NCBI RefSeq assembly: GCF_007992715.1
Contig: NZ_BKAU01000001.1
Coordinates: forward strand, 2,480,001-2,544,000
Direction of reading: 5' to 3'
From: Chitinophaga cymbidii
GTDB taxonomy: Bacteria; Bacteroidota; Bacteroidia; Chitinophagales; Chitinophagaceae
Length of the DNA: 64,000 nucleotides
Position 1 is the stretch's first letter. Every line of letters begins with the position of its first letter. Below the pieces are notes generated by a model, which searched no databases, was not told the DNA's origin, and saw only the letters and a list, made by a program, of their open reading frames with translations. This document shows, in pieces, positions 17,436 to 44,199 of the stretch. Position numbers and translations under genes: made by a program.

Positions 17436-17450
17436 GGCAATAGTTAGCGT

Positions 17451-26367: not shown

Positions 26368-26386
26368 TTTTGGTTATTTTAGAATC

Positions 26387-27268
26387 GTGATCAATTATTA
26401 CAAATACCTGCCCGTAAGCGCGGAAGACCAGCGTTGGGGGCTGTATGTGCTGAATGCGGGCTGCAACAGCATCGGCCCGTCGGAAGCCTATCCGCGCCCC
26501 GGCCATCCTTCCCGCCATCATTTTCAATGGGAGCAGGGCCGGGTATTGCAGGAGTTCCAGGTCATTTACATCTCGCGCGGCGCCGGCGTTTTTGAATCCA
26601 CGCATTGCCCGCCGGTGCGTATCACGGAGGGAACGGTGATGCTGCTGTTCCCCGGTGAATGGCACCGTTTCCGGCCGGATGAAGCCACCGGATGGGATGA
26701 ATGGTGGGCAGGCTTCAAAGGCGATATTCCCGCCAGCCTCCGGGAAGACGGCTTTTTCAGTCCAGCGCAGCCCCTGCTTCATACCGGCCTGCAGGAAACG
26801 ATCCTGCAATTGCTCACCGATATCATTGCGCACACCCGTTCGGAAAAACCCGGTTACCAGCCGCTCGTTTCCGGCGTCATACTGCATCTGCTGGGCTACC
26901 TCCATGCCTGGAACCGGCAGGCAGAGCTGCAGCAGGAAGATGTGCAGGAGAATATCGTGCACAAGGCCATGCAGATCATCCGGGCGAATGTGGACCGCCA
27001 GCTCTCTATCGAAAGCCTGGCCGAAGAGCTGTGCGTCAGCTATTCCTGGCTGCGCAAGGCGTTCCGGCAATATACCGGCATTGCTCCCGGACAGTACTTG
27101 CTGCAGCTGAAAATCGAAAGAGCGAAAATGCTGCTGGCCGATCCTTCCAAATCCCTGAAGGTGATCGCTGCTGAAACGGGGTTCGAGTCCGCTTTTTATT
27201 TTTCAAAGATCTTCAAGGTGAAGACGGGCGTGTCGCCTGACCTTTACCGGAAGACGCATAACGTGTGA
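26387..27268 (+). CDS. AraC-family transcriptional regulator
   Basis: A 293-residue regulator with an N-terminal cupin-like sensing domain (FQVIYISRGAGVFESTHC, LLFPGEWHRFRPDE). Its C-terminal AraC DNA-binding domain has two helix-turn-helix motifs (LSIESLAEELCVSYSWLRKAF and LKVIAAETGFESAFYFSKIFK) and ends GVSPDLYRK. The start is probably GTG at 26387. An in-frame TTG at 26360 would overlap the divergent isomerase start. The divergent position strongly suggests that it controls the sugar-isomerase gene in response to a sugar or its derivative. Confidence 0.9.
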   Translation: MINYYKYLPVSAEDQRWGLYVLNAGCNSIGPSEAYPRPGHPSRHHFQWEQGRVLQEFQVIYISRGAGVFESTHCPPVRITEGTVMLLFPGEWHRFRPDEATGWDEWWAGFKGDIPASLREDGFFSPAQPLLHTGLQETILQLLTDIIAHTRSEKPGYQPLVSGVILHLLGYLHAWNRQAELQQEDVQENIVHKAMQIIRANVDRQLSIESLAEELCVSYSWLRKAFRQYTGIAPGQYLLQLKIERAKMLLADPSKSLKVIAAETGFESAFYFSKIFKVKTGVSPDLYRKTHNV

Positions 27269-27488: not shown

Positions 27489-28079
27489 ATGGAGTCCGCT
27501 AAACTTGAACAGGAACTTTTAAAGCGATCAGCTGCAGGGGATGCCACCGCGTTTGCGGAGCTTTTCCGGATGTACCGGCATAAGCTGTACAGCTTTCTGC
27601 TGCGTGCCAGCGGTTCCCCGGAGATGGCGGAAGACATTACCCAGGACATATTTCTGAAACTCTGGAAAAACCGCGAATTGCTGACCGGGATAGCGCAGTT
27701 CGGGGGATATATTTACCGGATGGCGCAGCACCAGGTGATCAATTCGCTGAAGCGGATGGCCAGGGAAACGCTGATCCTGGGCGAGCTTGGCAAAACACAG
27801 CCGCTGGCGGGCCCGGATGCGGAAGCGCAGCTTAGCCTGCAGGAGGTTACGCAAAGCCTGCACCATGCGCTGGACAAACTCACGCCCAAGCAAAAACTGG
27901 TTTATACCCTCAGCCGGGAAAGAGGGCTGAAGCACGAAGAGATCGCCCGTTACCTGAACATTTCCCCTTCTACCGTTAACAACCACATGATAGAAGCCCT
28001 GCGCCTGATCCGGCAGCAGCTGCGCACCAGTCCCGAAGCGTTTACCGTACTGCTGGTTTTGCTGGTTTTTGTTCCCTGA
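27489..28079 (+). CDS. ECF-type RNA polymerase sigma factor (FecI-like)
   Basis: A 196-residue extracytoplasmic-function sigma factor. Region 2 spans about 20-85 (FAELFRMYRHKLYSFLL, EDITQDIFLKLWKNRELL). Region 4 spans about 125-180, starting LTPKQKLVYTLSRERGLKHEE and containing the recognition helix in YLNISPSTVNNHMIEAL. The hydrophobic tail (VLLVLLVFVP) is common in Bacteroidota members. In the phylum these factors are released by FecR anti-sigma factors when a SusC receptor binds its ligand. FecR and an STN-domain SusC follow downstream, so this is the probable switch of the locus. A lipoprotein gene on the other strand separates it from FecR, which is unusual. Confidence 0.94.
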   Translation: MESAKLEQELLKRSAAGDATAFAELFRMYRHKLYSFLLRASGSPEMAEDITQDIFLKLWKNRELLTGIAQFGGYIYRMAQHQVINSLKRMARETLILGELGKTQPLAGPDAEAQLSLQEVTQSLHHALDKLTPKQKLVYTLSRERGLKHEEIARYLNISPSTVNNHMIEALRLIRQQLRTSPEAFTVLLVLLVFVP

Positions 28080-28338
28080 CTACAGCGAAGCCTGATGGCC
28101 CGGTATGGTCGCCATTTTCGTTTGTCGTAAAAAAACGCTGATAGAATATTCACAAAATTAACGGCAGATCAAGTCCACATCATCTCCACCTCACATCCAC
28201 CTTGTCCGGCCCGTTCCTTCGGTTACCATGGCCGTTTTCCGGCTATATCCGGCATTGTTTTCCAGCTCAAAGTTAATACTATCAATAGGAGATAACCTGA
28301 TTACCTACTGAATCGTTATCAATTGGGTGTAAGATCAA

Positions 28339-28743
28339 TTAACGGGCTATCCCCTGATGAATGATAAATATTTCTTTCAGGTGATAGGTTACTGGTGACG
28401 GAACTTCACATCCTGTAGTTTCAACCTTTTCTCTAGTGATTGTTTTATACTCAATACCAATGCTGGTACCCAGTTCCTGCAGTTCAGGGAGCAGCCCTTT
28501 CACTTTAATTACGTTAGTGTAGGTTTCGTTGTCCACAACGATAGTGTCGCCTATGGACGGAGTATTGGGGTGTACGGTGCAATCGAGCAGCCAGTAGTCA
28601 TTATCCGGATCAGGATGACAGGTTTCTTTGCCGATGAGGTATCCTGCAATGAACTTGGTTTCCACCTTGTAAGGACGTTTGGTACAAGAAAGTGCGAACA
28701 AAAGCAAGGCTAACCAGGGCAAGGATAAAGGGCTTGGTTTCAT
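28339..28743 (-). CDS. Small orphan lipoprotein
   Basis: A 134-residue predicted lipoprotein with a signal sequence and lipobox LFALSC, cleaved before C20. The mature part is beta-strand rich with three further cysteines (CHPDPDNDYWLLDC, TTGCEVPSP), which could form disulfides. I recognise no family. It lies on the opposite strand between the sigma factor and FecR genes and is visibly AT-richer than them, so it could be a later insertion. The start ATG (complement of 28741-28743) is supported by the signal peptide. Confidence 0.65.
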   Translation of the reverse strand: MKPSPLSLPWLALLLFALSCTKRPYKVETKFIAGYLIGKETCHPDPDNDYWLLDCTVHPNTPSIGDTIVVDNETYTNVIKVKGLLPELQELGTSIGIEYKTITREKVETTGCEVPSPVTYHLKEIFIIHQGIAR

Positions 28744-28958
28744 GGGGTAAAGCTTGAATTCCTATTAAATTTAAAGAAAATATGTGGGACGGGAAGAATG
28801 CATCCATAAAATAGGACAGTCGCAAAAATATTGGTCATACTTTTCAGTCGCTGTATCATGGACGCGAACCACTTGCTACCGTCCTGAAAATATTTTTCTG
28901 AAAAAACTAGGTATACTTTTTTTTCCAATTGTCTATTAAAAGGGTAAATCACTCAAGC

Positions 28959-30119
28959 ATGTTGAGAGAACGTATGCAATACCTCATGGAAAGGTATTTT
29001 AATGACACCTGCACCGCGGAAGAGAGGCAAGAACTGGCGGAATGGATCAGCGAAGCGGGGCATGACGACGACCTGAAGGCCGTTGTTGCACAGACCTGGG
29101 AGCGGTTCCATCCCGCGGACCAGATGCCTGACGAGGTTTCCGCGCGTATCCAGGCGGCGCTTTTCAGCGATGAGAAGCTCCGCGTGCGTTCCCTCTACCG
29201 CTGGCTGGCCGCTGCATGCGTATTGCTGCTGGCGGTGGGCGCCGGCTTGTTCTGGTTAAGCAAATCAGAAAAACCCGCCCCGCAGGTGGCGCAGCATAAC
29301 CGCTATAAAAATGAAGTGCCCGCGGGCGGCAACAAAGCGGTGCTGACACTCGGCGATGGCACGGTGATTAACCTGGACAGCGCCGCGAACGGCGTACTGA
29401 CAACACAGGGGCGCGTACGGGTGGTGAAGCTGGCCAACGGGCAATTGTCCTACGAGCTGGAAGGCCAGGCGGACGGCGTGGTGCTGTACAACACCATGCG
29501 CACGCCGCGCGGCGGAGAATACCGCCTTTCCCTGCCGGACGGCACCATCGCCTGGCTGAACGCCGCGTCGTCCATTACCTATCCCACCGCATTTACCGGC
29601 GATATCCGGGATGTGAAGATTACTGGTGAAGTATATTTTGAAGTGGCGAAAGATGCCGGCAAGCCGTTCATGGTGGAAGCCGGAAAAATGAAAATAGAAG
29701 TACTGGGCACGCATTTCAATGTGAATGCATATGCCGCCGAACCGATGGTGAAGACCACCTTGCTGGAAGGCGCGGTGAAAGTATCCGGCGGCGGGCGCGG
29801 AGATGTACTGCAACCCGGCCAGCAGGCCCAGCTGGCACGTAACGGGGATATGAAAGTGGTGGATGATGTGGATTTGGAAGCAGTGATGGCGTGGAAGAAC
29901 GGGTACTTCCAGTTCCTGGATGCGGACATGCCTGCGGTGATGCGGCAACTGGAAAACTGGTACGACGTGACGGTGAGCTATGAAGAAGGATTTGTGCCGC
30001 GCAGAAGCTTCGGCGGCGGTATTCAGCGGTCGCTGCCACTGTCTAAAGTATTGACAATTTTAGAGGAGAATAATGTCAGATTCCGCGTAGAAGGGAAGAA
30101 TATCACGGTTTTGAAATAA
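28959..30119 (+). CDS. FecR-family anti-sigma factor
   Basis: A 386-residue single-pass inner-membrane protein that holds and activates the ECF sigma factor. A short cytoplasmic N-terminus (MLRERMQYLMERYFNDTC...) precedes a membrane helix near residues 85-105 (WLAAACVLLLAVGAGLFWL). The FecR domain follows (SLPDGTIAWLNAASSITYP, GEVYFEVAKD, VLGTHFNVNAY), then the C-terminal DUF4974/STN-like domain (MRQLENWYDVTVSYEEG ... SKVLTILEENN). I chose the ATG at 28959. An upstream TTG at 28929 is less likely. It is followed 166 bp later by the SusC gene, whose STN domain should contact this protein's C-terminus. Confidence 0.94.
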   Translation: MLRERMQYLMERYFNDTCTAEERQELAEWISEAGHDDDLKAVVAQTWERFHPADQMPDEVSARIQAALFSDEKLRVRSLYRWLAAACVLLLAVGAGLFWLSKSEKPAPQVAQHNRYKNEVPAGGNKAVLTLGDGTVINLDSAANGVLTTQGRVRVVKLANGQLSYELEGQADGVVLYNTMRTPRGGEYRLSLPDGTIAWLNAASSITYPTAFTGDIRDVKITGEVYFEVAKDAGKPFMVEAGKMKIEVLGTHFNVNAYAAEPMVKTTLLEGAVKVSGGGRGDVLQPGQQAQLARNGDMKVVDDVDLEAVMAWKNGYFQFLDADMPAVMRQLENWYDVTVSYEEGFVPRRSFGGGIQRSLPLSKVLTILEENNVRFRVEGKNITVLK

Positions 30120-30285
30120 CAAAAAAATATCCACGATTATGAAACGAACGCCGCAAACGTAAACAGATCAGCCTGCCGCTGAAAAAAAGCCAGAAATGGT
30201 TGCAACATCTCTGGCGGACGTTCAGCTGGCATGAACACTCAATCGGCTAGGACTGCCTATTCATTCAACCAAACAATGCAAATGT

Positions 30286-33200
30286 ATGCAATTTAAATTT
30301 ATCGCTTTCCGGAAGCGGACGGCCGTTGCTACACCAATTCCCGTACCGCCCGGAGTACACGGTGCGGGCTCCGGCCACCGTCTGCAAAACTCAACCAAAA
30401 TTTTGTTAGCTATGAAGTTAACATGCGTGTTCCTGACGGTCTTGTTCCTGAATGTAAGTGCCACCGGCGTATCGCAGACGGTGAGCTTTTCAGGCAGAAA
30501 TGTGAAACTGAAAACGATCTTTTCCGCTATCCACAAACAAACCGGCTATGTGGTATTTTATGATAACAGTTTGATCAAAGACGCAGATCCTGTAACGATC
30601 TCGTTGATGAATGCGCCGCTGGAAACCTTCCTGACGGCCTCCCTGCAGGGGCAGGACCTGAGCTATTTCATCATCGACAAAACGATCACCATCAAAAAAA
30701 CGCCGCCGCTCCGGGTGGTTTCCCCTTTCATTCTTCCTCCGGTGACGATTACCGGCAGGGTAACGGATGAAACGGGAGCGGGATTGCCCGGCGTGACCGT
30801 ACTGGTGAAGGGTACCCGCTTGGGTACTACTACCGATGAAAAAGGCGAGTTCAAATTCACCGGTATTGACGATAAAGCGGTACTTGTGTTTTCCTATATC
30901 GGTTATGCCACTGCCGAGGTAGAAGTGGCCGGCAGAAAAAAGGTGGACGTGATGATGGAAATAGCGGACAATACCACGCTGGAAAGTGTGGTAGTAGTGG
31001 GTTACGGCTCCATCAGGAAAAGCGACCTCACCGGTTCCGTATCCGCCGTGGAAGGCAAGGAGATCGCCGCCAGGAAAACCACGCAGATCTCTCAGGCACT
31101 GCAAGGCTCCATGCCCGGCGTAACGGTGACAAGAAGCAATAATGCCCCCGGCGCCACCGCCACCATCCGCGTGCGCGGCATCACTACGCTCAACGACGCC
31201 GGCGCTTCACCGCTGATCATCCTGGACGGGGTGCCGGTGGATGATATCAACTCCATCAACCCGAACGATGTTGACAATATCTCCGTGCTGAAAGACGCCG
31301 CCTCCGCATCCATCTACGGATCAAGGGCTGCGGCCGGCGTGATCCTCGTGACCACCAAGCGGGCGAAGAGCGGCCAGCTGAGCCTGGACTACACTTATGA
31401 GTATGGCGTGGAAAAACCTACTGTACTGCCGGATTATGTGGACGTGAAAAGGTTCATGCAGCTCACCAACGAACTACGCTGGAACGACAACGGCAACAAT
31501 ACCAACGAATATCCCACTTATCCGAAAGCCACCATCGATAATTATGACCAGCTGCATGCGGACAACCCGGATGAATACCCGGATACCGACTGGCGCAGCA
31601 TGATCCTGCATAATTCAGCGCCCCGGCAAAGCCACATCCTGAGCGTTTCCGGCGGTGGCAAGACCATCCGCTCACGGGTATCCCTGGCATACGATAAAAC
31701 GGACGCGCTGTACGATGACCGCACTTACGAACGCCTGACGGCCCGCATCAACAACGATATCACCATCAACAAGTACCTGTCCGCCAGCGTAGACATCAAC
31801 TTCCGCCGTTCCATCATCAAGCAGCCGACGGTCAATCCCATGTATAAAATGGGCATTGTACCGCCGTTGTATGCGGCCATGTGGTCAGACGGCAGGATCG
31901 GCGCGGGAAAGGACGGCGCGAATATTTACGCGCAATTGAAATACGGTGGTTTTGATCACGACTGGTACAACCAGATCGGTGGTAAAATAGGGCTGGATTT
32001 CACGCCTATTGAAGGATTGAAGTTCTCCGGCATTATTTCTCCGTTTGCGGGTTTCGACAAGATGAAGACCTTCAACAAGAAGGTGCCGTATACCTCCTGG
32101 AACAACCCGAACTCGGTGTCAGGTTATATAGAAGGCGCCAACGAAACAAAACTGTCGGAGAACCGCAACGACAATCAGCGGTATACCATACAGGCGCTGG
32201 CGAACTACACCAAGCAGCTGGGCAGTCATAACCTCAACATACTGGCGGGCTACGAATATTTCTATGCTTTTGATGAAGGTCTGGGCGCCTCCCGCGGGCA
32301 GTATATCCTGGACAATTATCCGTACCTGAACCTCGGCCCGCTGGAGTTCCGCGACAACAGCGGCAACGCAACAGAAAACGCCTACCGCTCCTGGTTCGGC
32401 CGTGTGATGTATAACTACAAGGATAGATACCTGTTGCAGGCGAATATCCGTTACGACGCTTCTTCCCGTTTCGCACCGGGCTACCGCTGGGGTTCCTTCC
32501 CGTCCGTATCGGCCGGCTGGATCATCTCGCAGGAGCCGTTTATGAGCAAGACATCCAACTGGCTGTCTTTCCTGAAGGTCCGCGCTTCCTGGGGAACGCT
32601 GGGTAATGAAAGGATCGGCGACAACTTCTATCCCTACCAGGCGCTGCTCCGCTTCGAAACCAATTCGCTGTTCTACCGCGGCAACACCGCTGTGTCCGCG
32701 CAATCCGCCGCGCAATGGCAATATATTATCCGCGACATATCCTGGGAAACGACCGAATCGTACGACTTCGGGATGGACGTGAACTTCCTGGACAACAGGC
32801 TGCGTGTGACCGCGGACTATTACAGGAAGACCACCCGCGACATCCTGCTGGAGCTGGAAATACCGGACTACATCGGGTTTGACAATCCTTACCAGAATAC
32901 CGGCAACATGTACACCACCGGCTGGGAATTCCAGGCGGGATGGAACGACAAGATCGGCGATTTCACCTACAGCGTTTCCGCCAACATATCCGACTTTGTG
33001 TCAAAGATGGGCGATCTCGGCGGCACGGAATTCCTGGGCGACAAGATCAAGACCTTCGGCAGCGAGTTTGACGAGTGGTATGGATATCTTTCTGACGGGC
33101 TTTTCCAGACGCAGGATGAAGTGGACAAATCCCCCACGCTGAATGCCAACACCCGGCCCGGCGACGTACGCTACAAGGACATCAGCGGTCCTAACGGCGT

Positions 33201-33756
33201 ACCCGATGGAAAAATATCTCCTGAATACGACCGTGTATTGTTAGGCGGCTCGCTGCCCCGTTACATGTACGGCGCTACTTTGCAGGGCGGTTATAAAAAC
33301 TGGAACCTCGGCATCGTGATACAAGGCGTAGGCAAGCAAAATTCAAGGCTGACCACTGATATTGTGCGGCCGCTGCTGGAAAACTACGGCAACTTCCCGC
33401 TGATACTCGATGGAGCAAGCTGGAGCCATTACAACACGCCGGAGCAGAACCTCCAGGCAAAATACCCGCGCTATTCCAACACCGCCGCCGGGAACAACTA
33501 TACGCTCTCCGACTACTGGCTGATCAAAGGCTCTTATTTCCGCCTCAAGAACGTCAACCTGAGCTATACCGTTCCCAGGTCACTGACAGAAAGGATCAAG
33601 ATACAAGACCTGCGGGTATATGGAGCCGTTTCGGACCTGTTCTCCCTCCATCATTTCCCGAAAGGATGGGACCCGGAATGGGGCAGAGATGCATCCAACA
33701 ACCTGGGCTATCCCATCACCATGTCATTTGTATTCGGCGTATCTGTTAAGTTTTAA
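30286..33756 (+). CDS. SusC/RagA-family TonB-linked outer-membrane transporter with STN domain
   Basis: An 1156-residue TonB-dependent channel. A long positively charged N-terminus leads into a signal peptide (MKLTCVFLTVLFLNVSAT, from residue 43), so a start at 30412 is possible. The STN signalling domain spans about 66-137. It is followed by a carboxypeptidase-regulatory-like domain (ITGRVTDETGAGLPGV, GEFKFTG), the plug (TTLESVVVVGYGSIRKSDLTG, then SIYGSRAAAGVILVTTKR) and the barrel ending in FVFGVSVKF. The STN domain marks it as a sensor-transporter that signals through FecR to the sigma factor. The SusD partner begins 6 bp after its stop. The transported substrate is not known, though the downstream flavoenzymes suggest that it is oxidised or reduced outside the cytoplasm. 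Confidence 0.96.
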   Translation: MQFKFIAFRKRTAVATPIPVPPGVHGAGSGHRLQNSTKILLAMKLTCVFLTVLFLNVSATGVSQTVSFSGRNVKLKTIFSAIHKQTGYVVFYDNSLIKDADPVTISLMNAPLETFLTASLQGQDLSYFIIDKTITIKKTPPLRVVSPFILPPVTITGRVTDETGAGLPGVTVLVKGTRLGTTTDEKGEFKFTGIDDKAVLVFSYIGYATAEVEVAGRKKVDVMMEIADNTTLESVVVVGYGSIRKSDLTGSVSAVEGKEIAARKTTQISQALQGSMPGVTVTRSNNAPGATATIRVRGITTLNDAGASPLIILDGVPVDDINSINPNDVDNISVLKDAASASIYGSRAAAGVILVTTKRAKSGQLSLDYTYEYGVEKPTVLPDYVDVKRFMQLTNELRWNDNGNNTNEYPTYPKATIDNYDQLHADNPDEYPDTDWRSMILHNSAPRQSHILSVSGGGKTIRSRVSLAYDKTDALYDDRTYERLTARINNDITINKYLSASVDINFRRSIIKQPTVNPMYKMGIVPPLYAAMWSDGRIGAGKDGANIYAQLKYGGFDHDWYNQIGGKIGLDFTPIEGLKFSGIISPFAGFDKMKTFNKKVPYTSWNNPNSVSGYIEGANETKLSENRNDNQRYTIQALANYTKQLGSHNLNILAGYEYFYAFDEGLGASRGQYILDNYPYLNLGPLEFRDNSGNATENAYRSWFGRVMYNYKDRYLLQANIRYDASSRFAPGYRWGSFPSVSAGWIISQEPFMSKTSNWLSFLKVRASWGTLGNERIGDNFYPYQALLRFETNSLFYRGNTAVSAQSAAQWQYIIRDISWETTESYDFGMDVNFLDNRLRVTADYYRKTTRDILLELEIPDYIGFDNPYQNTGNMYTTGWEFQAGWNDKIGDFTYSVSANISDFVSKMGDLGGTEFLGDKIKTFGSEFDEWYGYLSDGLFQTQDEVDKSPTLNANTRPGDVRYKDISGPNGVPDGKISPEYDRVLLGGSLPRYMYGATLQGGYKNWNLGIVIQGVGKQNSRLTTDIVRPLLENYGNFPLILDGASWSHYNTPEQNLQAKYPRYSNTAAGNNYTLSDYWLIKGSYFRLKNVNLSYTVPRSLTERIKIQDLRVYGAVSDLFSLHHFPKGWDPEWGRDASNNLGYPITMSFVFGVSVKF

Positions 33757-33762
33757 AACCGC

Positions 33763-35457
33763 ATGATCATGAAATTCAAATTATATATCACCTGCATGGG
33801 CCTGTTCTTCATGGCAGCCTGCGCGAAGCTGGACCTGAACCCGTTGTCCGACGGATCGAGTGAAACGTGGAACTCCACAGCGGAAGAAATCGAAATGTCC
33901 CTCAACGGGTTATACAAAGATGTTTTCTGGCCGCAGGATAACGACGACTGGACAGATGATTTTATGTACCGCGATGTTACCACGCCCATTACCGGCGCTA
34001 CGATAAACGGCGAAACCGATTTTGTGCGTACCTGGTGGGTAAACAGCTACAAGGTCATTGCACGGGCCAACACCATTGTGCACAGCGTGAGCAGGGCCGC
34101 GGACAAGCTGTCCCCCACACAGATCAACCGTTACTCGGGAGAAGCGCGTTTCGTGCGCGCGGCGCAGTATTCAAAGCTGTTATCGCATTACGGCAATATC
34201 ATCTACACCGATTCCGCGATGGACATTGACCAGGCATTGCAGCAGAAGCAGGTAGAAAAAGCTATCGTATTGCAAAAGATCTATGCCGATTTTGATTTCG
34301 CAGCGGAAAACCTGCCGCCTTCCTATACCGCCAACGAACTGAAACGCGCCACCTCCGGCGCCGCGCTGGCCATGAAAGCCCGTATCGCCCTGCAAATGGA
34401 AGACTGGGCCACCGCCGCGGAAGCGGCAAAGGATTGTATGGACCAGGATATCTACAAGCTGCATCCGGATTTCAGCAGCCTCTTCCTCTCCAAAACAAAG
34501 AATTCGGTGGAGATGGTATTCGGTCTGCCCAGGTCCATTGCCCTGAATGTGAAGATGGGCGACCTGCAGAACTATGTGCCGCGCAATCCGGGCGGATGGG
34601 GCGCCAAGAACCCGTCCTGGGACCTGTTCTGCGCTTTCCTTTGCACGGACGGCCTGCCCATTGATGAATCGCCTTCTTTTGATCCGCATAATCCCTTCCT
34701 GAACCGTGATCCGCGTTGTGCCGCTACCATCGTGCCTTTCGGGACTTCCTTCCTGGGCTACACCTATCAGCCGCATCCGGATTCTCTGAAAGTATGGAAG
34801 GATGCCGACATGAAATATGTGGAGAACAAAGACAACCGCGCGGTGGCGATTTTCGCATCTTACAACGGCCTCATCTGGAAGAAAGGGGTAGACGGCGACT
34901 GGCTACTGAACTCCTGGAACGCGGAGCCTGACAAGATCATCATCCGCTATGCCGATGTGCTGCTGATGTATGCCGAAGCAAAGATGGAGCTGAACCAGAT
35001 CGACCAGACCGTGCTGGATGCCGTGAACCAGGTACGCGCCAGGGCGTATGGAGTGGACTATACGGCTACCAATCTTTATCCCGCGGTAACTACTACCGAT
35101 CAGACCGAACTGAGAAGGATCATCCGTACAGAAAGAAGAATGGAATTTGCCAAGGAAGGCATCCGTTATATGGACATCATCCGCTGGAAGCTCGCAGAGA
35201 AAGTATTGAACAACATCAACTACGGCATGCTCGATCCGGCGGACCTGCGTACGAAAGTAGTGCAGCCCGGCCTGTGGTTCTTCCCGCAAACGCCGGCCAT
35301 TGATGAAGATGGCGTGGCCGATTTCACCGCACTGGCGGATGCCGGGTTGATCAAAACAGTAGCTGTTCGCAAGTTTGACGAAACACGGCAGTATCTCTGG
35401 CCGATTCCTTCTACCGAAGTACTCACCAGCGGCCTGGACCAAAACCCGAACTATTGA
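33763..35457 (+). CDS. SusD/RagB-family nutrient-binding lipoprotein
   Basis: A 564-residue outer-membrane lipoprotein that lids the SusC channel and captures its substrate. The lipobox is FMAACAKL. The N-terminal SusD-like region includes EMSLNGLYKDVFWPQ and the TPR-like helices (ARFVRAAQYSKLLSHYGNI). The C-terminal domain has the family markers KIIIRYADVLLMYAEAK, IIRTERRMEFAKEGIRYMD and LWPIPSTEV. It immediately follows SusC, so they form one transporter. The next gene begins 1 bp after its stop, which implies that the downstream orphan lipoprotein and redox genes are expressed with it. Confidence 0.96.
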   Translation: MIMKFKLYITCMGLFFMAACAKLDLNPLSDGSSETWNSTAEEIEMSLNGLYKDVFWPQDNDDWTDDFMYRDVTTPITGATINGETDFVRTWWVNSYKVIARANTIVHSVSRAADKLSPTQINRYSGEARFVRAAQYSKLLSHYGNIIYTDSAMDIDQALQQKQVEKAIVLQKIYADFDFAAENLPPSYTANELKRATSGAALAMKARIALQMEDWATAAEAAKDCMDQDIYKLHPDFSSLFLSKTKNSVEMVFGLPRSIALNVKMGDLQNYVPRNPGGWGAKNPSWDLFCAFLCTDGLPIDESPSFDPHNPFLNRDPRCAATIVPFGTSFLGYTYQPHPDSLKVWKDADMKYVENKDNRAVAIFASYNGLIWKKGVDGDWLLNSWNAEPDKIIIRYADVLLMYAEAKMELNQIDQTVLDAVNQVRARAYGVDYTATNLYPAVTTTDQTELRRIIRTERRMEFAKEGIRYMDIIRWKLAEKVLNNINYGMLDPADLRTKVVQPGLWFFPQTPAIDEDGVADFTALADAGLIKTVAVRKFDETRQYLWPIPSTEVLTSGLDQNPNY

Positions 35458-35458
35458 T

Positions 35459-37882
35459 ATGACGAAAGGATACAGACACCTGATCATCGCAGGCGCTGCG
35501 CTTGCGCAGATAACGGCTTGCAAGCCATCAGAAGAAACTGCGAAAGCCAGGTCTTTCAGCGGCGTTTACCCGCACCTGGCCATGTATAACAATGAAGGAG
35601 AATGCGGTACCGGCGCGGTAGTGCCCTGGGCCGGCAAGCTCTGGGTGATCACCTACGGCCCGCATTTACCGGAAGGCTCTTCCGACAAACTGTATGAAAT
35701 ATCGCCGGACCTGCAACAGACCGTGCGCAGCGAAAGCATCGGCGGAACGCCGGCCAACCGCATGATCCACACAGAAAGCCGGCAGCTTTTCATCGGACCG
35801 TATGCGATAGACAGCAGCGGTAAAGTAAGGGCGATCCCCTACACCGCCATGAAGGGCCGCCACACCGGTAATGCCCGTCATCTGACAGATCCCGCCGGCA
35901 AGATCTATTACGGCACGATGGAAGAAGGTTTTTATGAAGTGGATGTAAAAACGCTGCAACCAACGATGCTTTATCCGGACGCCAACCCCCGCGGCTCCGT
36001 TCCCGATCTCCTGCCCGGCGCACATGGCAAGGGACTATATTCCGGGCAGGGCGTAATGGTGTATTCCGATAACGGCGAGCCCGGCCCGAAATCACTCACA
36101 GACTACACGGTGGAATCCGGTTCTTTATCGGAATGGGACGGGAAGAACTGGAAAACGGTACGCCGCAACCAGTTCGTGGAAGTGACCGGCCCCGGCGGTA
36201 TCTACGGGAATAAAAATTCTGATACCGATCCCATCTGGTCAACAGGTTGGGACCACCGCTCCCTATTGCTGGCCGTGCGCGATCAGGGCAAATGGCATTT
36301 CTACCGCATGCCGAAGGCCAGCCACAGCTACGACGGCGCGCATGGCTGGAACACGGAATGGCCGCGCATCCGCGACATCGGCACGCCTCAGCAGCCGGAT
36401 TACATGATGACCATGCACGGCATGTTCTGGCGTTTCCCCGGCGGTTTTAACAGCACACACACCGCCGGCATCCGCCCGCGTTCCGCATATCTCAAAGTGA
36501 TCGGCGATTACGCCCGCTGGAACGATCAGCTCGTATTCGGCTGTGATGACTCCGCGCAAAAGGAATTCCTCAACAAACGAAAAGCGAAAGGCGGCATCGA
36601 AGGGCCGGGGCAATCCAATTCCAATCTCTGGTTCACCTCCATGGATATGCCGGACCAGCTCGGCCCCAATACTGCGGAAGGCGCCGTATGGCTGAACGAC
36701 AACGTAAAGGCGAACGAGCCCTCCGAACCCTTCCTGTTTGCAGGGTGGCCGCTGCGCTCCGCCTGGGTGCAGAATAACGGCAACAAGCCTGTGCAATTCA
36801 CGTTTGAAACAGATAAAGAAGGCAATGGTCAGTGGGCTGAAACACAGACTGTGACGGTATCCGCGGGTGGGAGCGCTCCCATTGTATTTCCGGCGGATAT
36901 GCCGGGTGAATGGATTCGCGCAAGGACGAACGGTAACACAAATGCCACGCTGCATTTTTACTACGCCGCGAAGGATAGCCGGAAATCCGCGCCGGACGCG
37001 ATGTTCAACGGACTGACAAATATTTCCGCTACAAAAACGACCGGCGGCCTGCTCTATGGATTAGGAAAAAACCGCCGTACATTGGGAGTGCTGAACGATG
37101 CGGGATATTATGAGCTGAATGAAAAGATGGAACTGGAAAAGAAAGAAGATACCGCCACGAGCGCGTTCATCAGCAAAAAGTTTGCGGTCCGGCATGAAGG
37201 AGTGACCATAGACGCTGCTTCCGTACTGGTGGTGGACGACAAAGGCCGCCGCTACCGCCTGCCGCTCGGGGATGATGCTTTCACCGGCCTCACGCAGAAC
37301 GGCTCGCTGCGCATTTGCCGCGAAGTGGCTACGGAACGCGACCTGTTCAACTGCCACGGTACGTTTTACGAACTGCCGGCAGAGAACGCGGACGGATACG
37401 CGAAGATCCGCCCGGTAGCGTCACACGCTTACCGCATCAACGATTATGCATCCTATCGAGGATTGCTGGTGTTGACCGGTGTGGATGCGGACGTGAACAG
37501 CGAACATATCATCCGTTCTCCGGATGGAAAAGCGGCGGTATGGGCCGGTGTGATAGATGATCTGTGGAAGCTCGGAAAACCCACCGGGCACGGAGGCCCC
37601 TGGAAGCAGTCGCCCGCAAAGGCCGGCACGCCTTCCGATCCGTACCTGTTCGGTTTTTATGATAACCGCAGCCTGCAACTTTCACACGACGCGCAGCAGC
37701 CCGTCACCTTTAAAGTGGAGCTGGACCCCGTTGGCACCGGTGTATGGATGCAGTATAAGGAGGTAACGGTAGCGCCCGGCGAAAGCTTTGCGTTTCAGTT
37801 CCCCGCAGATGTGCAGGCCCGCTGGATAAGGTTTGTGAGTAACAAGGATTGTAATGCTACAGCCCAACTGGAATATAAGTAG
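35459..37882 (+). CDS. Large orphan lipoprotein with two duplicated C-terminal beta modules
   Basis: An 807-residue predicted lipoprotein with lipobox ITACKPSE, probably surface-exposed like SusD. Residues 30-415 have short repeated strands of propeller type (GKLWVITYGPHLPEGSSDKL, GKIYYGTMEEGFYEVDV). Two related ~82-residue segments are at about 421-503 and 725-807. Each begins PSEPFLF or PSDPYLF, has a VTVSAGGS or VTVAPGES stretch and ends GEWIRAR or ARWIRFVS, so one arose by duplication. I know no named family or catalytic motif. The ATG at 35459 overlaps nothing and follows the SusD stop by 1 bp. The C-terminus overlaps the next gene by 29 bp. A substrate-binding or hydrolytic role is possible but unproven. 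Confidence 0.85.
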   Translation: MTKGYRHLIIAGAALAQITACKPSEETAKARSFSGVYPHLAMYNNEGECGTGAVVPWAGKLWVITYGPHLPEGSSDKLYEISPDLQQTVRSESIGGTPANRMIHTESRQLFIGPYAIDSSGKVRAIPYTAMKGRHTGNARHLTDPAGKIYYGTMEEGFYEVDVKTLQPTMLYPDANPRGSVPDLLPGAHGKGLYSGQGVMVYSDNGEPGPKSLTDYTVESGSLSEWDGKNWKTVRRNQFVEVTGPGGIYGNKNSDTDPIWSTGWDHRSLLLAVRDQGKWHFYRMPKASHSYDGAHGWNTEWPRIRDIGTPQQPDYMMTMHGMFWRFPGGFNSTHTAGIRPRSAYLKVIGDYARWNDQLVFGCDDSAQKEFLNKRKAKGGIEGPGQSNSNLWFTSMDMPDQLGPNTAEGAVWLNDNVKANEPSEPFLFAGWPLRSAWVQNNGNKPVQFTFETDKEGNGQWAETQTVTVSAGGSAPIVFPADMPGEWIRARTNGNTNATLHFYYAAKDSRKSAPDAMFNGLTNISATKTTGGLLYGLGKNRRTLGVLNDAGYYELNEKMELEKKEDTATSAFISKKFAVRHEGVTIDAASVLVVDDKGRRYRLPLGDDAFTGLTQNGSLRICREVATERDLFNCHGTFYELPAENADGYAKIRPVASHAYRINDYASYRGLLVLTGVDADVNSEHIIRSPDGKAAVWAGVIDDLWKLGKPTGHGGPWKQSPAKAGTPSDPYLFGFYDNRSLQLSHDAQQPVTFKVELDPVGTGVWMQYKEVTVAPGESFAFQFPADVQARWIRFVSNKDCNATAQLEYK

Positions 37883-38960
37883 ACTGATTTTTTTGGTCAT
37901 CCTGTGTGCGCAGGCGGCAATGCCCGCGCACGCGGATGATACCATCCGCAAATATGAAGTGAAGGAAAGCGACAGCCTTACCTACACGCTGAACCTTGTG
38001 CTGAACGAAGCGGGGCAGCCGCAGTATTTCTACCGGAACATCTATACGCCGGTGTGCAATACCGGCGAATGCAAACCGGTGTACATCAATTTTTACTGGG
38101 ACCTGATGGGCAACTACATGCGGTTCGACATGCCGCCGAACGAAGTGCTCACCAAAACGGACCACCGCGAATTCCTGGAAAAGGACTATGCCAAGCTGCA
38201 GGAAATACTTGCGCGCGAAAGCTCCCTCCTCGCGGAGCTGAAGATGGAAGACCTCGTTGTGAAAGGCACGGAGAACATTTCCGATTCGGCCAATATCAAA
38301 ACGGGCGCAACGCTGAAGACGATCAAAAACGAAGTGATAGAAGGCGCGGTGTTCACCTGCTATACGCTCTGGCATATCGCGCATGGAAAGGTGGTAGAGG
38401 AGATACAGCAAATCACGGAGAGCTATACTTCCCCGAAGCTGCTGCATCATTTCCTGCGCAGCAGTAACCATCATTACGAATACTGGGCCATGGAAAAAGT
38501 GATCGGGGCGGATGGACAGGTGCGGGCCGGGTATGAGGAAGACATCAAAGGGATCATTGCGGGGGAGAACATTTTTACGGCGCGGCACGCCCTGCAGGCG
38601 GTGCACCCCGCTTTCTTCGCAACGTCCGCCCGCCAGCGCTGGCTTTGGGAAGTATACCGCCCCGCCGTGTATCCCTTCCAGATGGCCATCCTGCGAAAAC
38701 TGAAAGACATTCCCCTTACCGAAGCCCTGGCTGTTCGTATAGCTAAGGCCGTTAGAGAGGGAAACCATGAGCAATTTAAAATAAAACTGGCGCTGCTGGC
38801 CGCGCAGCAAAAGCTGGCGGACAAAGCGCAACTGGAGCTGGCTGCGCAGCTGAACGACCCGGACGCGGGCGCGGAAATATTCGCGGCGCTGTCTGCCATG
38901 AAGCCGGCGCATAAAACAGTACGCCAGAAATTGTTGGATTATAAAAAGAAAAATGACTGA
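37854..38960 (+). CDS. Secreted protein with FMN-attachment-type TGAT motif (probable ApbE substrate)
   Basis: A 368-residue secreted protein with a signal peptide ending near MPAHA. Around residues 145-175 it reads SANIKTGATLKTIKNEVIEG, then AVFTCYTLW. This closely resembles the FMN_bind domain end, where [S/T]GAT is the site at which ApbE links FMN to the last threonine, here T153 (codon 38310-38312). The region before it has a Cys pair (C68, C73) in TPVCNTGECKPVYINFYWD and LEKDYAKLQEIL. The C-terminal 110 residues are helical and HEAT-like. The family call is my inference from the motif and from the ApbE gene two positions downstream. It overlaps its neighbours by 29 and 8 bp, so translation is coupled. 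Confidence 0.8.
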   Translation: MLQPNWNISRLIFLVILCAQAAMPAHADDTIRKYEVKESDSLTYTLNLVLNEAGQPQYFYRNIYTPVCNTGECKPVYINFYWDLMGNYMRFDMPPNEVLTKTDHREFLEKDYAKLQEILARESSLLAELKMEDLVVKGTENISDSANIKTGATLKTIKNEVIEGAVFTCYTLWHIAHGKVVEEIQQITESYTSPKLLHHFLRSSNHHYEYWAMEKVIGADGQVRAGYEEDIKGIIAGENIFTARHALQAVHPAFFATSARQRWLWEVYRPAVYPFQMAILRKLKDIPLTEALAVRIAKAVREGNHEQFKIKLALLAAQQKLADKAQLELAAQLNDPDAGAEIFAALSAMKPAHKTVRQKLLDYKKKND

Positions 38961-40794
38961 TATGAAACTATTGATGCGCCTCGCGGCGGCCGGCATTGCC
39001 CTCCTGCTGCTGCACAGCAGCCTTTACGCCCAAAAGCATGTGTTCGTGGAAGCAGAATCCTTTGAAAACAAAGGCGGATGGGTGACCGACCAGCAATCCT
39101 TCGTGGTCATCGGCTCTTCCTACCTGATGGCGCACGGCATGGGCAGACCGGTGAAAGACGCCGTAACCACGGTGACCTTCCCCGCCAAAGGCAAATACCG
39201 GATGTGGGTGCGCACCAAAGACTGGGCGCCCTTCCCCACAGGTCCGGGTAAATTCACCCTTTCCATCGACGGTCAGCAGGCGGGCCCCGTATTCGGCGCC
39301 AGCGGAAACGACGCCTGGAAATGGTACGACGGCGGCACGGTGGACATCAAAAACGAACAGGTGAAGCTGACGATGAAAGACCTCACTGGCTTTAACGGCC
39401 GCTGTGATGCCATCCTCTTTACCGACGCTGCGAAATTCACTCCGCCCAACACGTTAAAGGACCTCACCGCTTTCCGCAACAAGCTGCTGAATTTGCACGC
39501 GGAACCGGATAACGGTGGGCACTACGACCTCGTAGTGGTAGGCGGCGGCATCGCCGGTACCTGTGCCGCGATCTCCGCGGCGCGCCAGGGCCTGAAAACC
39601 GCGCTCATACAGGACCGCCCGGTGCTCGGCGGCAATAACAGCTCCGAAGTGCGCGTGCACCTGAAAGGGGATATCGACAAGAACCACTACCCCAAGCTGG
39701 GCAGGATCGTGCGGGAAATGGATAACGGCGATCCCGGCAACGGCCATCCTGACGCAGCAGAGTATGGCGACAAACGCAAGATCGAGATCGTAAAAGCGGA
39801 AAAGAACCTGACGCTGTTCCTCAACATGCACGTGTACAAGGTAGAGATGGATAAAGACCAGATCAAAGCCGTGATCGGCAGAAATATTTCCACCAACCAG
39901 GACGTGCGTTTTACCGGTACATTTTTCTCCGACTGCACAGGAGACGGCACCGTGGGCTTCCTGGCCGGCGCAGACTTCCGCATGGGCCGTGAAAGCAAAG
40001 CGGAAACTGGCGAATCGCTCGCTTCAGAAAAAGCGGACGATTTTACACTCGGCACTTCTAACCTCTGGGCTTCCCTGGAGCGGGACACCGTATCGTCTTT
40101 CCCCGAAACGCCCTGGGCCCTGCAATTCTCCGATGAATATCATATCGACCAGGCAAGGTCAGACTGGGAGTGGGAAACCGGCTTCGGCAATTTCAACACC
40201 ATCACGGAAGCCGAACAGATCCGCGATCATAATCTCCGCGCGATCTACGGCAACTGGTCTTACCTGAAAAAGAGCAAGCCCGAAAAATATGCGAAGCGCG
40301 AGCTGGCATGGGTAGCTTATATCGGCGGCAAAAGGGAATCGCGCCGGATACTCGGCGATCACATCCTCACGCAGATGGACATCCAGGAAGGCAAATTCTA
40401 TCCGGACGGCGCCGTGACCGCTACGTGGACGATCGACCTGCATTTTCCGCAGGAAAAGAACAGCAAGTATTTTGAAGGGCAGGAGTTCTTCGCCAGTACC
40501 AAACACATCCGCGTAGCGCCGTACACCATTCCGTACCGCTGCCTGTATTCCCGCAATATTTCCAACCTGTTCATGGCCGGCCGGAATATCAGCACCACGC
40601 ACGTGGCCTTCGGCAGCACCCGCGTGATGCGCACCTGCGGCATGATGGGCGAAGTGGTGGGCTTTGCGGCCGGCATTGCGAAAAGACATAACACATCGCC
40701 CAGGGGCGTATACCAGCATCACCTGCCGGAACTGATCGCCATCCTGAAAGATGAACCGCTGCCGCCGCAGCAAATGACGAACAAGGTAGAATAA
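38953..40794 (+). CDS. Secreted FAD-dependent oxidoreductase with N-terminal beta-sandwich domain
   Basis: A 613-residue flavoprotein with a signal peptide (MRLAAAGIALLLLHSSLYAQ). Residues 27-160 form a beta-sandwich like carbohydrate-binding or xanthan-lyase-type modules (VFVEAESFENKGGWVTDQQS, KGKYRMWVRTKDWAPF). The FAD_oxidored part starts near H190 with YDLVVVGGGIAGTCAAISAA, followed by VLGGNNSSEVRVH, then FFSDCTGDGTVGFLAGADF and the late FMAGRNISTTHVAF. Similar enzymes occur in polysaccharide-degradation loci of this phylum, but the substrate of this group is not established. Secretion of an FAD enzyme directly beside a likely covalent-FMN protein and ApbE suggests electron transfer between them. 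The start at 38953 overlaps the previous gene by 8 bp. Confidence 0.92.
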   Translation: MTDMKLLMRLAAAGIALLLLHSSLYAQKHVFVEAESFENKGGWVTDQQSFVVIGSSYLMAHGMGRPVKDAVTTVTFPAKGKYRMWVRTKDWAPFPTGPGKFTLSIDGQQAGPVFGASGNDAWKWYDGGTVDIKNEQVKLTMKDLTGFNGRCDAILFTDAAKFTPPNTLKDLTAFRNKLLNLHAEPDNGGHYDLVVVGGGIAGTCAAISAARQGLKTALIQDRPVLGGNNSSEVRVHLKGDIDKNHYPKLGRIVREMDNGDPGNGHPDAAEYGDKRKIEIVKAEKNLTLFLNMHVYKVEMDKDQIKAVIGRNISTNQDVRFTGTFFSDCTGDGTVGFLAGADFRMGRESKAETGESLASEKADDFTLGTSNLWASLERDTVSSFPETPWALQFSDEYHIDQARSDWEWETGFGNFNTITEAEQIRDHNLRAIYGNWSYLKKSKPEKYAKRELAWVAYIGGKRESRRILGDHILTQMDIQEGKFYPDGAVTATWTIDLHFPQEKNSKYFEGQEFFASTKHIRVAPYTIPYRCLYSRNISNLFMAGRNISTTHVAFGSTRVMRTCGMMGEVVGFAAGIAKRHNTSPRGVYQHHLPELIAILKDEPLPPQQMTNKVE

Positions 40795-41753
40795 TGTGGA
40801 TCATCGCCGCCCTGATCAGTTTCCTGCTGCCGGAGGTCAGCTTTGAAGGCACCGCCCAGGGAACCACGTACCACATCCGTTACCTGGATGTAGGGCAGCG
40901 TTATCTGAAAATACAGGTGGATTCCATCCTGTCGGACATCGACAAGGCTTTGTCCACTTACCGGACTGATTCCGAAATATCAACCTTTAATGCGTTCGAT
41001 GATTTCCGGTATCAGTCCGGTCATTTTTACCCCGTGCTGCAACGCGCGTATGAAGTGTATATAGCCACCAACGGCGCTTTTGACCCTACCATATCGCCGC
41101 TGACGGAAGCATACCGCAAAGGGAAGCGCAGGGGGCAATCCTGGACCGGACAGCTGGATTCCCTGCTGTCATACGTCGGCTTTCAATACATTACTTTCGA
41201 TTCCGTTTCCGTGCACAAGACCAAATCCAATGTGCGGCTGGACCTTGACGCCATCGCACAGGGATATACGGTGGACGTGATCGCCGCTTACCTCGAAAAA
41301 AAAGGCATCACGGATTACATGGTGGAAGTAGGCGGCGAGCTGCGCGTGCATGGAGATAGAAAATGGCCGGTGCAGATAGAAGACCCCGTTCATCCCGGCC
41401 AGACGCTCCGCACATGCATGATCTCCAACCGGGCGATGGCTACCTCCGGCAATTATAATAATCACTATCAGCAAGGCAACCAGGTATTCAACCACATCAT
41501 CAACCCCAAGACCGGCCTTTCCCGGCCCGACCCGCTGCTGAGCGCCACCGTTTTCGCGGCGGACGCCATGACCGCGGACGCTTACGCCACCGCCCTGATG
41601 GTATTGGGGCTGGAAGAGGCAAAACGTTTGTTATCAAGGGAAAAGCAGCTGGATGCCATACTCGTATATAATGATAACGGCCGGCCGGGCGTTTTTTTTC
41701 ATTTTTCATCTTCGCTTCATCTTCCCGAAATAGTTTTGTCATGTAATCATTGA
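40794..41753 (+). CDS. apbE: FAD:protein FMN transferase
   Basis: A 319-residue enzyme that moves FMN from FAD onto a threonine of a target protein in the periplasm. A hydrophobic N-terminus (MWIIAALISFLLP) should export or anchor it. Family motifs are complete: STYRTDSEISTFN, NGAFDPTISPL, LDLDAIAQGYTVD, VEVGGELRVHG, FNHIINPKTGLS, and the metal-site region VFAADAMTADAYATALMVLG. The ATG overlaps the stop of the oxidoreductase gene in a TAATG arrangement. It is the last clear member of the SusCD operon, and its most likely substrate is the TGAT protein encoded two genes upstream. Confidence 0.95.
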   Translation: MWIIAALISFLLPEVSFEGTAQGTTYHIRYLDVGQRYLKIQVDSILSDIDKALSTYRTDSEISTFNAFDDFRYQSGHFYPVLQRAYEVYIATNGAFDPTISPLTEAYRKGKRRGQSWTGQLDSLLSYVGFQYITFDSVSVHKTKSNVRLDLDAIAQGYTVDVIAAYLEKKGITDYMVEVGGELRVHGDRKWPVQIEDPVHPGQTLRTCMISNRAMATSGNYNNHYQQGNQVFNHIINPKTGLSRPDPLLSATVFAADAMTADAYATALMVLGLEEAKRLLSREKQLDAILVYNDNGRPGVFFHFSSSLHLPEIVLSCNH

Positions 41754-41774: not shown

Positions 41775-42266
41775 ATGAAAACAAAAGGAATGATCGTGGC
41801 TGCGCTGCTGTTATCTGGCGCGGCATTTGCACAGGCACCGGTAAAAGCCGGCGGCAGCGTAAAAGCAGGGCAGGCCATTGAGGCCGGAAAGGCTGGCCTG
41901 AAAGCCAATACGGAAGCATCCGGAAGCGCCCGCATACATGGGGCGAAAGCAATGAAAGCAAAAGTGGAAGACGGAATACAGACTGCCGCGGACCATGCCT
42001 ATGCCGCAAAGCACAAGGTACGGCAAACCGCCGCTGATGTGGTGAATAACGCCCCGAAGGCGGTACAGGTGAATGCCGGCACCAACGCGCATGTACAGGC
42101 AGATCACCCCGCGGTACAGGTGCGCACGAAAACAGGCATTTCATCCGGCGTAAAAGCGCCTGCCGTGCAGGATGCGTTGCATCACGCCGGTATGATGCAT
42201 ACAAAGGTGGTGCCTGTAAAGGTAAGCACCCGCATCAACGGCGGCGCGGGACTGAGGATTTTGTAA
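41775..42266 (+). CDS. Secreted Ala-rich, low-complexity protein
   Basis: This 163-residue protein has a signal peptide (cleavage near AFAQ). The rest is rich in Ala, Lys, Val and Gly with imperfect repeats (VKAGGSVKAGQAIEAGKAGLK, KAMKAKVEDGIQTAADHAYA), somewhat like LEA or apolipoprotein-type amphipathic helices. I recognise no family. It starts 21 bp after the apbE stop with no terminator between, so it might be read from the same promoter. An inverted repeat follows its stop. Confidence 0.75.
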   Translation: MKTKGMIVAALLLSGAAFAQAPVKAGGSVKAGQAIEAGKAGLKANTEASGSARIHGAKAMKAKVEDGIQTAADHAYAAKHKVRQTAADVVNNAPKAVQVNAGTNAHVQADHPAVQVRTKTGISSGVKAPAVQDALHHAGMMHTKVVPVKVSTRINGGAGLRIL

Positions 42267-42279: not shown

Positions 42280-42317
42280 AACAGGTTTTTGCCGTCTTGC
42301 GGCGGCAAAAACTTGTT
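42280..42317. terminator. Strong hairpin downstream of the Ala-rich gene
   Basis: A 15-nt arm at 42280-42294 pairs with 42303-42317 with one mismatch, around an 8-nt loop. The stem contains a T-run and an A-run rather than ending in T's, so it is a probable but non-canonical terminator or an mRNA-end stabiliser. It may close the SusCD/flavin operon. Confidence 0.5.
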
Positions 42318-43506: not shown

Positions 43507-43522
43507 TCAATTATAAAAACAG

Positions 43523-44197
43523 ATGAAGGTATTGATCGTGGAAGATGAAAGGTCACTGGCGGCAGAAATGGAAGCATTCCTGAAAAAGGCGTTTTATTTA
43601 TGCGACCTGGCTTACACCGCAAAGCAGGGCCTGACGAAAATGGAAGAGAACCAGTACGATTTTATCCTGCTGGACCTCGGCCTGCCGGATAAGGACGGAC
43701 TGCATGTACTCGGTGAGGCAAGAAAGAATTGTCCGGATGCCGCATACATCATTATCACCGCCCGCGGGCAGCTGGAAGACAGGATACAGGGGCTGGACCT
43801 GGGCGCGGATGATTATCTGCCCAAGCCGTTCTCGCTACTGGAATTGCAATCGAGGATGCAGGCCATTGCCCGGCGGAAGTTTGCGGTGAGCGACAGCGTG
43901 ATGGCGCTTGGGGATTTTACGATCGATATGAACAAGCGCATGATCTATTTCGGAGAAGAGGAGATCGTATTGTCGCGGAAAGAATTTGACCTGCTGAGCT
44001 ACATGCTGCTGCACAAGAACAGGCCGCTCACCCGGATGCAGCTCAGCGAACATATCTGGGGGAATTTTTCGGATGACGATTATGATTCGAACTACATCGA
44101 TGTGCATATCAAGAACATCCGCAAGAAGCTGGCGGCCTTTTCGTCCGTAGAGTGGTTACAGACCATCCGCAGCGTAGGATATAAAATAAAAGTCTGA
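43523..44197 (+). CDS. OmpR-family response regulator
   Basis: A 224-residue DNA-binding response regulator. The receiver has the acidic pocket in VEDE, phospho-acceptor D51 in ILLDLGLPDKDG, and the lysine in YLPKPFSL. The C-terminal winged helix (about 130-224) includes VLSRKEFDLLSYMLLHKNRP, then the recognition helix region NYIDVHIKNIRKKL and the wing TIRSVGYKIKV. The kinase gene starts 2 bp after its stop, so this is a classical two-component pair. Probable targets are the neighbouring envelope genes. Confidence 0.95.
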   Translation: MKVLIVEDERSLAAEMEAFLKKAFYLCDLAYTAKQGLTKMEENQYDFILLDLGLPDKDGLHVLGEARKNCPDAAYIIITARGQLEDRIQGLDLGADDYLPKPFSLLELQSRMQAIARRKFAVSDSVMALGDFTIDMNKRMIYFGEEEIVLSRKEFDLLSYMLLHKNRPLTRMQLSEHIWGNFSDDDYDSNYIDVHIKNIRKKLAAFSSVEWLQTIRSVGYKIKV

Positions 44198-44199
44198 GC

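Follow-up and report, generated by a model that had tools for sequence, protein, structure and literature searches.

In polysaccharide utilisation loci, SusC, SusD and surface lipoproteins are encoded as sets under the control of an extracytoplasmic function (ECF) sigma factor and FecR. The operon of Chitinophaga cymbidii that we describe here has the same uptake half, but a redox cassette stands where the glycoside hydrolases would, and no glycoside hydrolase was recognised within it. The operon lies on the + strand at 27489..41753 of the window, by which we mean the whole 64,000-nucleotide stretch analysed (contig NZ_BKAU01000001.1, positions 2,480,001 to 2,544,000; genome size 6.63 Mb). The cassette encodes a putative carrier of covalent flavin mononucleotide (FMN), which we call the TGAT protein, an oxidoreductase dependent on flavin adenine dinucleotide (FAD) and predicted to be secreted (FADox), and an ApbE-type FAD:protein FMN transferase.

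The two-flavin logic, with covalent FMN and an FAD enzyme in exchange, would be the same as in the flavinylated FAD reductases of the fumarate/urocanate type. These contain FMN_bind plus FAD_binding_2, whereas in the window the carrier and the FAD enzyme are separate genes of other families. Oxidative glycan breakdown through 3-keto-glycosides in the Bacteroidota periplasm shares the idea of oxidising a sugar before it is cleaved, but uses Gfo/Idh-type enzymes where the window has a PF12831 enzyme and an FMN carrier. ApbE-flavinylated extracytosolic electron-transfer systems, as described in passages of two earlier studies (Meheust 2021, PMC8238504; Huang 2024, PMC11334425), likewise bring together ApbE, a partner oxidoreductase and an exported protein whose motif is of the [ST]GA[ST] type. 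The window differs from them in that a Pfam scan of the TGAT protein gave none of FMN_bind, DUF2271 and DUF3570, in that this protein has a C-x4-C pair and HEAT-like repeats, and in that the cassette is coupled to SusCD and a PF12831 enzyme. The same passages list FMN_bind, DUF2271, DUF3570, NqrB/RnfD, Flavodoxin_4 and FMN_red among the known ApbE substrates (PMC8238504, PMC11334425) and note orphan apbE genes as unexplained (Meheust 2021, PMC8238504), and the cited ApbE literature, in the portions drawn on here, ties flavinylation mainly to respiration and iron. Supplements aside, the main text of PMC8238504 has 0 occurrences of SusD, SusC and 'Bacteroid', and that of PMC11334425 has 0 of SusD and SusC; we found no publication on this SusCD-linked cassette in the open-licence literature. 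From the comparisons below, we consider it probable that the operon represents a dedicated, portable FADox/FMN-carrier/ApbE cassette joined to glycan-type SusCD operons and working by the full mechanism that we propose further below.

The original prediction for this stretch had named the gene set and its spacing, and the coordinates confirm both: from SusC to ApbE the intergenic gaps are 6, 1, -29, -8 and -1 bp, the last junction reading TAATG. The features are as follows.

27489..28079, + strand: ECF sigma factor, 196 residues (TIGR02985, 136.9 bits, above the cut-off)
28929..30119, + strand: FecR-type anti-sigma factor or signal transducer, 396 residues, start uncertain (PF04773, PF16344)
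30286..33756, + strand: SusC/RagA TonB-dependent transporter, 1156 residues by the first ATG (TIGR04056, 902 bits)
33763..35457, + strand: SusD-type surface lipoprotein, 564 residues (PF07980, PF14322)
35459..37882, + strand: lipo807, an 807-residue lipoprotein with predicted beta-propeller and beta-sandwich domains
37854..38960, + strand: TGAT protein, 368 residues, putative FMN carrier (alignments, motif counts, and a model with a predicted local distance difference test score, pLDDT, of 83)
38055..38072, + strand: invariant cysteine pair C68-x4-C73 of the TGAT protein (72 of 72 aligned rows)
38292..38312, + strand: flavinylation-type motif NIKTGAT, residues 147-153, with Thr153 as the expected FMN site (from conservation)
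38953..40794, + strand: FADox, predicted secreted FAD-dependent oxidoreductase (PF12831, 256.7 bits, residues 192-588)
40794..41753, + strand: ApbE FAD:protein FMN transferase of the cassette clade (PF02424, 242.9 bits against a cut-off of 25.6)
41775..42266, + strand: 163-residue exported protein, possibly the last gene of the transcript

TGAT proteins form a real and rare family, whose members almost always have an FAD oxidoreductase as partner. It was found in 3 of 244 genomes of the family, all three of this genus, and in 8 of 395 genomes in a search of the phylum, and a FADox match of at least 76% identity occurs in 19 of 79 genus genomes, that of the window included. Among 19 genus loci, a count that includes the window and also L108 (short FADox, broken TGAT frame, split ECF gene, genome 80% complete), the TGAT gene stands beside FADox in 19, with ApbE in 16 and with SusC-SusD-lipo807 upstream in 18; the whole set is present in 15. 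The co-occurrence of the downstream genes that the original prediction had proposed as a check is thus seen in the genus, and the TGAT-FADox pair recurs in 25 Cytophagales loci. An earlier view of ApbE as incidental, based on its presence in one of the two other genus loci of the family set, was overturned by the 16 of 19 in the wider set. The predicted tight packing also extends to most genus loci, where gaps are small. Larger values occur in several loci with overlaps of 61-139 bp, in L018 (a gap of 76 bp) and in the damaged L108 (a gap of 405 bp); all were computed from first start codons, so that overlaps are overstated, and the L103 row is unusable (matches on both strands were mixed).

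Beyond the genus, 44 loci came out of a profile scan covering 84,980 species, 12 from Chitinophaga, 25 from Cytophagales (Spirosoma, Larkinella, Runella, Dyadobacter, Rudanella, Arsenicibacter and Siphonobacter) and 7 remote. In all 25 Cytophagales loci a different SusC-SusD pair (24-35% identical to the window's over pieces) precedes TGAT and a 76-81% identical FADox, and ApbE follows in 15, all seven Larkinella and three Dyadobacter loci being without it there; one Dyadobacter locus (L131) has a second TGAT-FADox pair. An FAD oxidoreductase of about 1050 residues lies directly upstream of TGAT in five of the seven remote loci. The phylum search gave eight loci besides the window's (its L164 is the same as L127), with a FADox-type gene directly adjacent to TGAT in seven; in L170, ApbE stands between the two. 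PF12831 was found in 11 of the 11 TGAT-partner enzymes scanned, the assignment of the remaining partners as FADox resting on BLAST similarity. On Flammeovirga plasmid p1 the record names an 'FAD-dependent oxidoreductase' followed by a 'hypothetical protein' (the TGAT homolog), with sulfatases on both sides, and in Persicobacter genes for a sulfatase and a PF12831 enzyme come after the TGAT homolog. In L165, a SusC and SusD 56 and 53% identical to the window's are joined to the other class of FADox and TGAT.

Comparison thus points to a gene order that is more than chance, since it recurs throughout the genus and, in part, in a second NCBI class of the same phylum, and to co-inheritance of the cassette genes. 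That the genes are co-located by accident, or are loose passengers of an ordinary polysaccharide utilisation locus, might be argued from L103, where TGAT-FADox-ApbE occurs without SusCD or lipo807 and with other genes upstream, and from other genera that have SusCD and the lipoprotein but no cassette with them. The constancy of the TGAT-FADox order in the 19 genus and 25 Cytophagales loci, the mostly small gaps and the single ApbE clade described below stand against this, and on the conservation of gene order we reject it as very improbable.

The TGAT protein has a signal-like N-terminus, from which we infer that it is exported, and the model shows an N-terminal beta-sheet domain and C-terminal HEAT/ARM-like helices. 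Its alignment of 72 rows (59 distinct sequences, 13 loci having entered twice) has 315 well-filled columns, of which 9 are fully invariant, including G151, T153, C68 and C73; the cysteine pair is also present in six TGAT homologs found later. Within the motif, G151 and T153 occur in 72 of 72 rows and A152 in 70, while position 147 is Asp in 65 and Asn in 7. The 59 distinct sequences divide into D..TGAT (25), D..AGAT (17), D..SGAT (10), N..TGAT (5), D..TGFT (1) and D..SGST (1), so that 54 have an Asp three residues before the motif and 40, among them the window with TGAT at residues 150-153, fit [ST]GA[ST]. Remote relatives carry the textbook DG-x-SGAT, as in the later-found homologs of Flammeovirga (DGRSGAT) and Persicobacter (DGFSGAT). 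According to the relevant passages of one study, ApbE attaches FMN to the last Thr/Ser of this motif (PMC12052999). By its motif, the [ST]GA[ST] pattern with its invariant Thr, the TGAT protein thus looks like an ApbE substrate, in line with the original prediction, and Thr153 is the candidate site.

The window ApbE keeps S218, H234 and D262 with the same spacing (16 and 28) as Ser241, His257 and Asp285 of the Vibrio ApbE, residues described as conserved, with His as the general base, in passages of PMC12052999. His and Asp are present in all 31 ApbEs from cassette operons, and in the alignment with outside ApbEs His occurs in every row and Asp in all but two outside rows. We built a maximum-likelihood tree from 61 ApbEs: 31 encoded in operons of Chitinophaga type or of Cytophagales, 29 outside ones from the window's family, and that of L170. 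It placed the 31 in one clade (100/99), apart from the other 29 and L170. Because the outgroup of this tree had no non-operon ApbE from Cytophagales, 40 new ApbE places and 12 further stretches were taken from Cytophagales, genus paralogs and remote genomes; 39 of the 40 places, the last giving no match, were combined with part of the old rows in a second tree of 81 rows, which carries a long-branch warning for some distant rows; the 31 stayed together, with four Larkinella ApbEs inside (35 rows, 100/99). In a third tree (59 rows) the clade comprised 38 rows (100/99) and now held copies from all seven Larkinella genomes, in each of which the main locus is without ApbE and a clade-type ApbE lies elsewhere. 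Three of the four such places viewed are second operons of the order SusC-SusD-FADox-TGAT-ApbE (L252:4-8348, L253:97-8250 and L255:85-8161), with a TGAT homolog of 28-29% identity, and at the fourth place (L254) the TGAT gene is closely followed by the frame for ApbE. In all 35 places viewed, the clade ApbE adjoins a TGAT gene. These comparisons show an ApbE clade dedicated to the cassette. A putative signature of the clade, a Thr four residues after the active-site Asp, was dropped, as 26 of the 39 new rows have it too. The window genome itself has two ApbEs, and a scan of it for FMN_bind, DUF3570 and DUF2271 (NqrB, Flavodoxin_4 and FMN_red were outside the scan) gave no match.

Several observations nevertheless weigh against the proposed cassette, and some of them would fit an alternative in which the TGAT protein is not flavinylated: the motif would be a loop with a structural role, the operon ApbE would act on some other protein or would have diverged from flavin transfer, and FADox would use a diffusible acceptor. 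The TGAT protein has no Pfam or NCBIfam family above cut-off, and no PF04205 (FMN_bind), DUF2271 or DUF3570 row appeared at a maximum E of 10, at which the search filters drop most weak matches. In hhalign, a TGAT profile built from 20 of 30 loci matched FMN_bind with probabilities of 4.9% and 7.4%; that alignment is in register at the motif, and unrelated alignments gave less than 1%. A sequence search of the PDB with query A4 gave a best FMN-domain match with an E of 0.062, which is not significant. The fold search with the TGAT model returned HEAT/ARM repeats in common arrangements and no FMN_bind chain among the matches listed; the HEAT-like half filled the lists, and residues before 84 were barely covered, so that this search does not speak against an FMN_bind fold. 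The window has NIKTGAT, with the usual Asp replaced by Asn; the first Thr/Ser is Ala (AGAT) in 17 of the 59 distinct sequences, and the four Larkinella second-locus homologs read DAVSSAT, with Gly lost, Thr kept and a clade ApbE adjoining. The AGAT and SSAT variants are a reservation on flavinylation, the passages of PMC12052999 used here covering neither. At the position of Ser241, presumed to be catalytic, the operon ApbEs have Ser in 4 and Ala in 27 of 31 (for example L093:13705-14646), against Ala in 1 of 65 outside the clade and Ser in the four Larkinella clade ApbEs tested; we take this as specialisation, though activity may also have been lost in some. ApbE is missing from 13 of the 44 loci made up by the 19 of the genus (L019, L100 and L108) and the 25 of Cytophagales (10), and six TGAT genomes have no clade ApbE: three of Chitinophaga type with one ApbE each and three Dyadobacter with 4, 3 and 3. 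That ApbE is present wherever TGAT is (24 of 24 genomes, 22 without it at the TGAT locus) lends no support, because 78 of 79 genus genomes have an ApbE. Finally, the TGAT homologs of L150 and L153 have no FADox beside them.

On the other side, the final Thr of the motif is invariant and remote relatives carry its textbook form, a single ApbE clade tracks TGAT genes even to second loci, and the active-site His and Asp are kept throughout the operon ApbEs. As to the Asn of the window, in passages of PMC12052999 the motif Asp is strictly conserved, yet its change to Ala had only minor effects, while Gly to Ala about halved flavinylation. We therefore regard a TGAT protein without FMN as unlikely, and a flavinylated TGAT protein as the better account of the cassette.

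For FADox itself, an N-terminal domain resembles carbohydrate-binding modules by eye, with no library match. Flavinylated extracytosolic reductases carry an FAD domain, and the best PDB profile matches of FADox are flavocytochrome c3 fumarate reductases, both of which could suggest that electrons run from the membrane through the FMN carrier to FADox, which would then reduce an imported compound. ApbE flavinylation is also described, in passages of PMC11334425, as serving flavin reductases with various metabolites as electron acceptors. However, the fumarate reductase matches span only 46 residues of nucleotide-binding fold, and the PDB searches give no substrate because nothing but this fold was matched; the best PF00890 (FAD_binding_2) stretch covers 37 of 414 positions, short of a full domain. 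No electron-input gene of Nqr, Rnf, cytochrome b or PepSY type was identified in the window operon, and enzymes that oxidise sugars are among the products of neighbouring genes in other loci. We thus find the reductase direction rather doubtful and lean mildly towards sugar oxidation. The proposed carrier scheme has against it that the operon yielded no recognisable membrane electron partner. In L167, a DUF7133-HEAT-cytochrome c protein (15491-17752, - strand), a possible electron acceptor, is encoded two genes upstream of FADox-TGAT.

The uptake half consists of adjacent SusC/RagA and SusD/RagB families (TIGR04056, PF07980) followed by lipo807, which has no family match above cut-off in the library scan and no PDB sequence match. 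It was found in 13 of 244 family genomes, 3 with the cassette and 10 without TGAT, FADox and ApbE; SusC-SusD lies directly upstream in 5 of these 10. Three of the ten matches are partial, and two of those three are on short contigs. Since lipo807 occurs behind SusCD without redox genes and is absent from the 25 Cytophagales cassette loci, it belongs to the SusCD half and not, as had been supposed, to the redox set. It is likely a surface ligand-binding partner of SusCD; with its predicted beta-propeller and its place next to a TonB-dependent transporter it is comparable to BtuG (PDB 8blw), a surface lipoprotein of Bacteroides.

The original prediction also saw a ligand-sensing switch in ECF, FecR and an STN-type SusC. 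ECF and FecR, both above cut-off, do adjoin the transporter, and an STN domain (PF07660) was found on SusC residues 88-138 (E 1.6e-5), but at 25.1 bits it falls short of the Pfam cut-off of 28.4. The ECF gene occurs in 17 of the 19 genus loci (L100 starts at a contig end, L103 is without it, and in L108 it is split) and FecR in 18; both are seen in 16 sister loci, where they are at most about 230 bp apart. In the window they are separated by 849 bp holding an opposite-strand open reading frame (28339-28743, - strand) for a lipoprotein-like protein of 134 residues without a Pfam match. At the other end, the 163-residue exported protein has a 34% identical version at the same place in L018 and no match in the remaining 17 genus loci. 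The strongest terminator-like stem (42280-42317) follows its gene and is weak evidence for one transcript, because the scan gave 18 against 15.4 in shuffles. Further downstream (42658-45570) lie genes for a 282-residue predicted exported protein and then a response regulator and histidine kinase, which are also neighbours of the operon in L018, the closest relative.

Within 10 kb of the operon, the window has a glycoside hydrolase (GH) of family GH20 (18962-20533) and a sugar-isomerase-like gene with an arabinose/fucose isomerase C-terminal domain (24937-26367, - strand); in L026, GH20 domains and a 74% identical isomerase stand beside lipo807. Neighbours elsewhere include GH2 and an SSF symporter (L115), GH29, RhaM and FucP (L164), GH2 and GH43 (L167), L-fucose dehydrogenase, FucP and an L-fuconolactonase-like protein below the model cut-off (L168), and sulfatases (L165, L169 and L170). 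This context fits deoxy- or amino-sugar glycans as putative cargo, with no single substrate indicated. An AraC regulator gene (26360-27268, + strand) lies just upstream of the operon, divergent from the isomerase-like gene. A gene of the CstA family (carbon starvation or transporter) occurs near the TGAT homolog in L148, L149, L166 and L167, and a polysaccharide pyruvyl transferase-like protein (PF04230) with a signal-like N-terminus is encoded beside the cassette in L149 and L152, with a similar protein in L151.

Based on these comparisons we can outline how the cassette would work. The ECF/FecR-controlled SusC-SusD-propeller system would capture a glycan or glycoside and bring it into the periplasm, where ApbE would use FAD as the source of the FMN that it links to Thr153 of the TGAT protein, itself exported. 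FADox would bind the imported sugar, oxidise or reduce it with its own FAD and pass electrons to, or take them from, the FMN on the TGAT protein; the TGAT protein could thereby connect FADox with the respiratory chain, either docked or by diffusion. The content of the operon suggests that oxidation or reduction of the imported sugar takes place outside the cytoplasm, and this central idea of the original prediction is well supported by comparative genomics, with its chemistry still putative. More tentatively, and with some doubt on our part, the TGAT proteins may represent a class of covalent-FMN carriers that has escaped recognition, with C-x4-C as a further redox centre and with an ApbE clade of their own whose active site is departing from the usual one. 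They would drive oxidoreductive glycan processing in the Bacteroidota periplasm as a portable cassette that can be joined to different SusCD systems.

In this operon, ApbE flavinylation appears tied to nutrient capture in glycan-feeding Bacteroidota, with a specialised clade of ApbE and a candidate substrate family that is new. If the proposal is true, secreted PF12831 oxidoreductases would have a role, as would a part of the 'orphan' apbE genes, and periplasmic redox processing of glycans would become directly testable.

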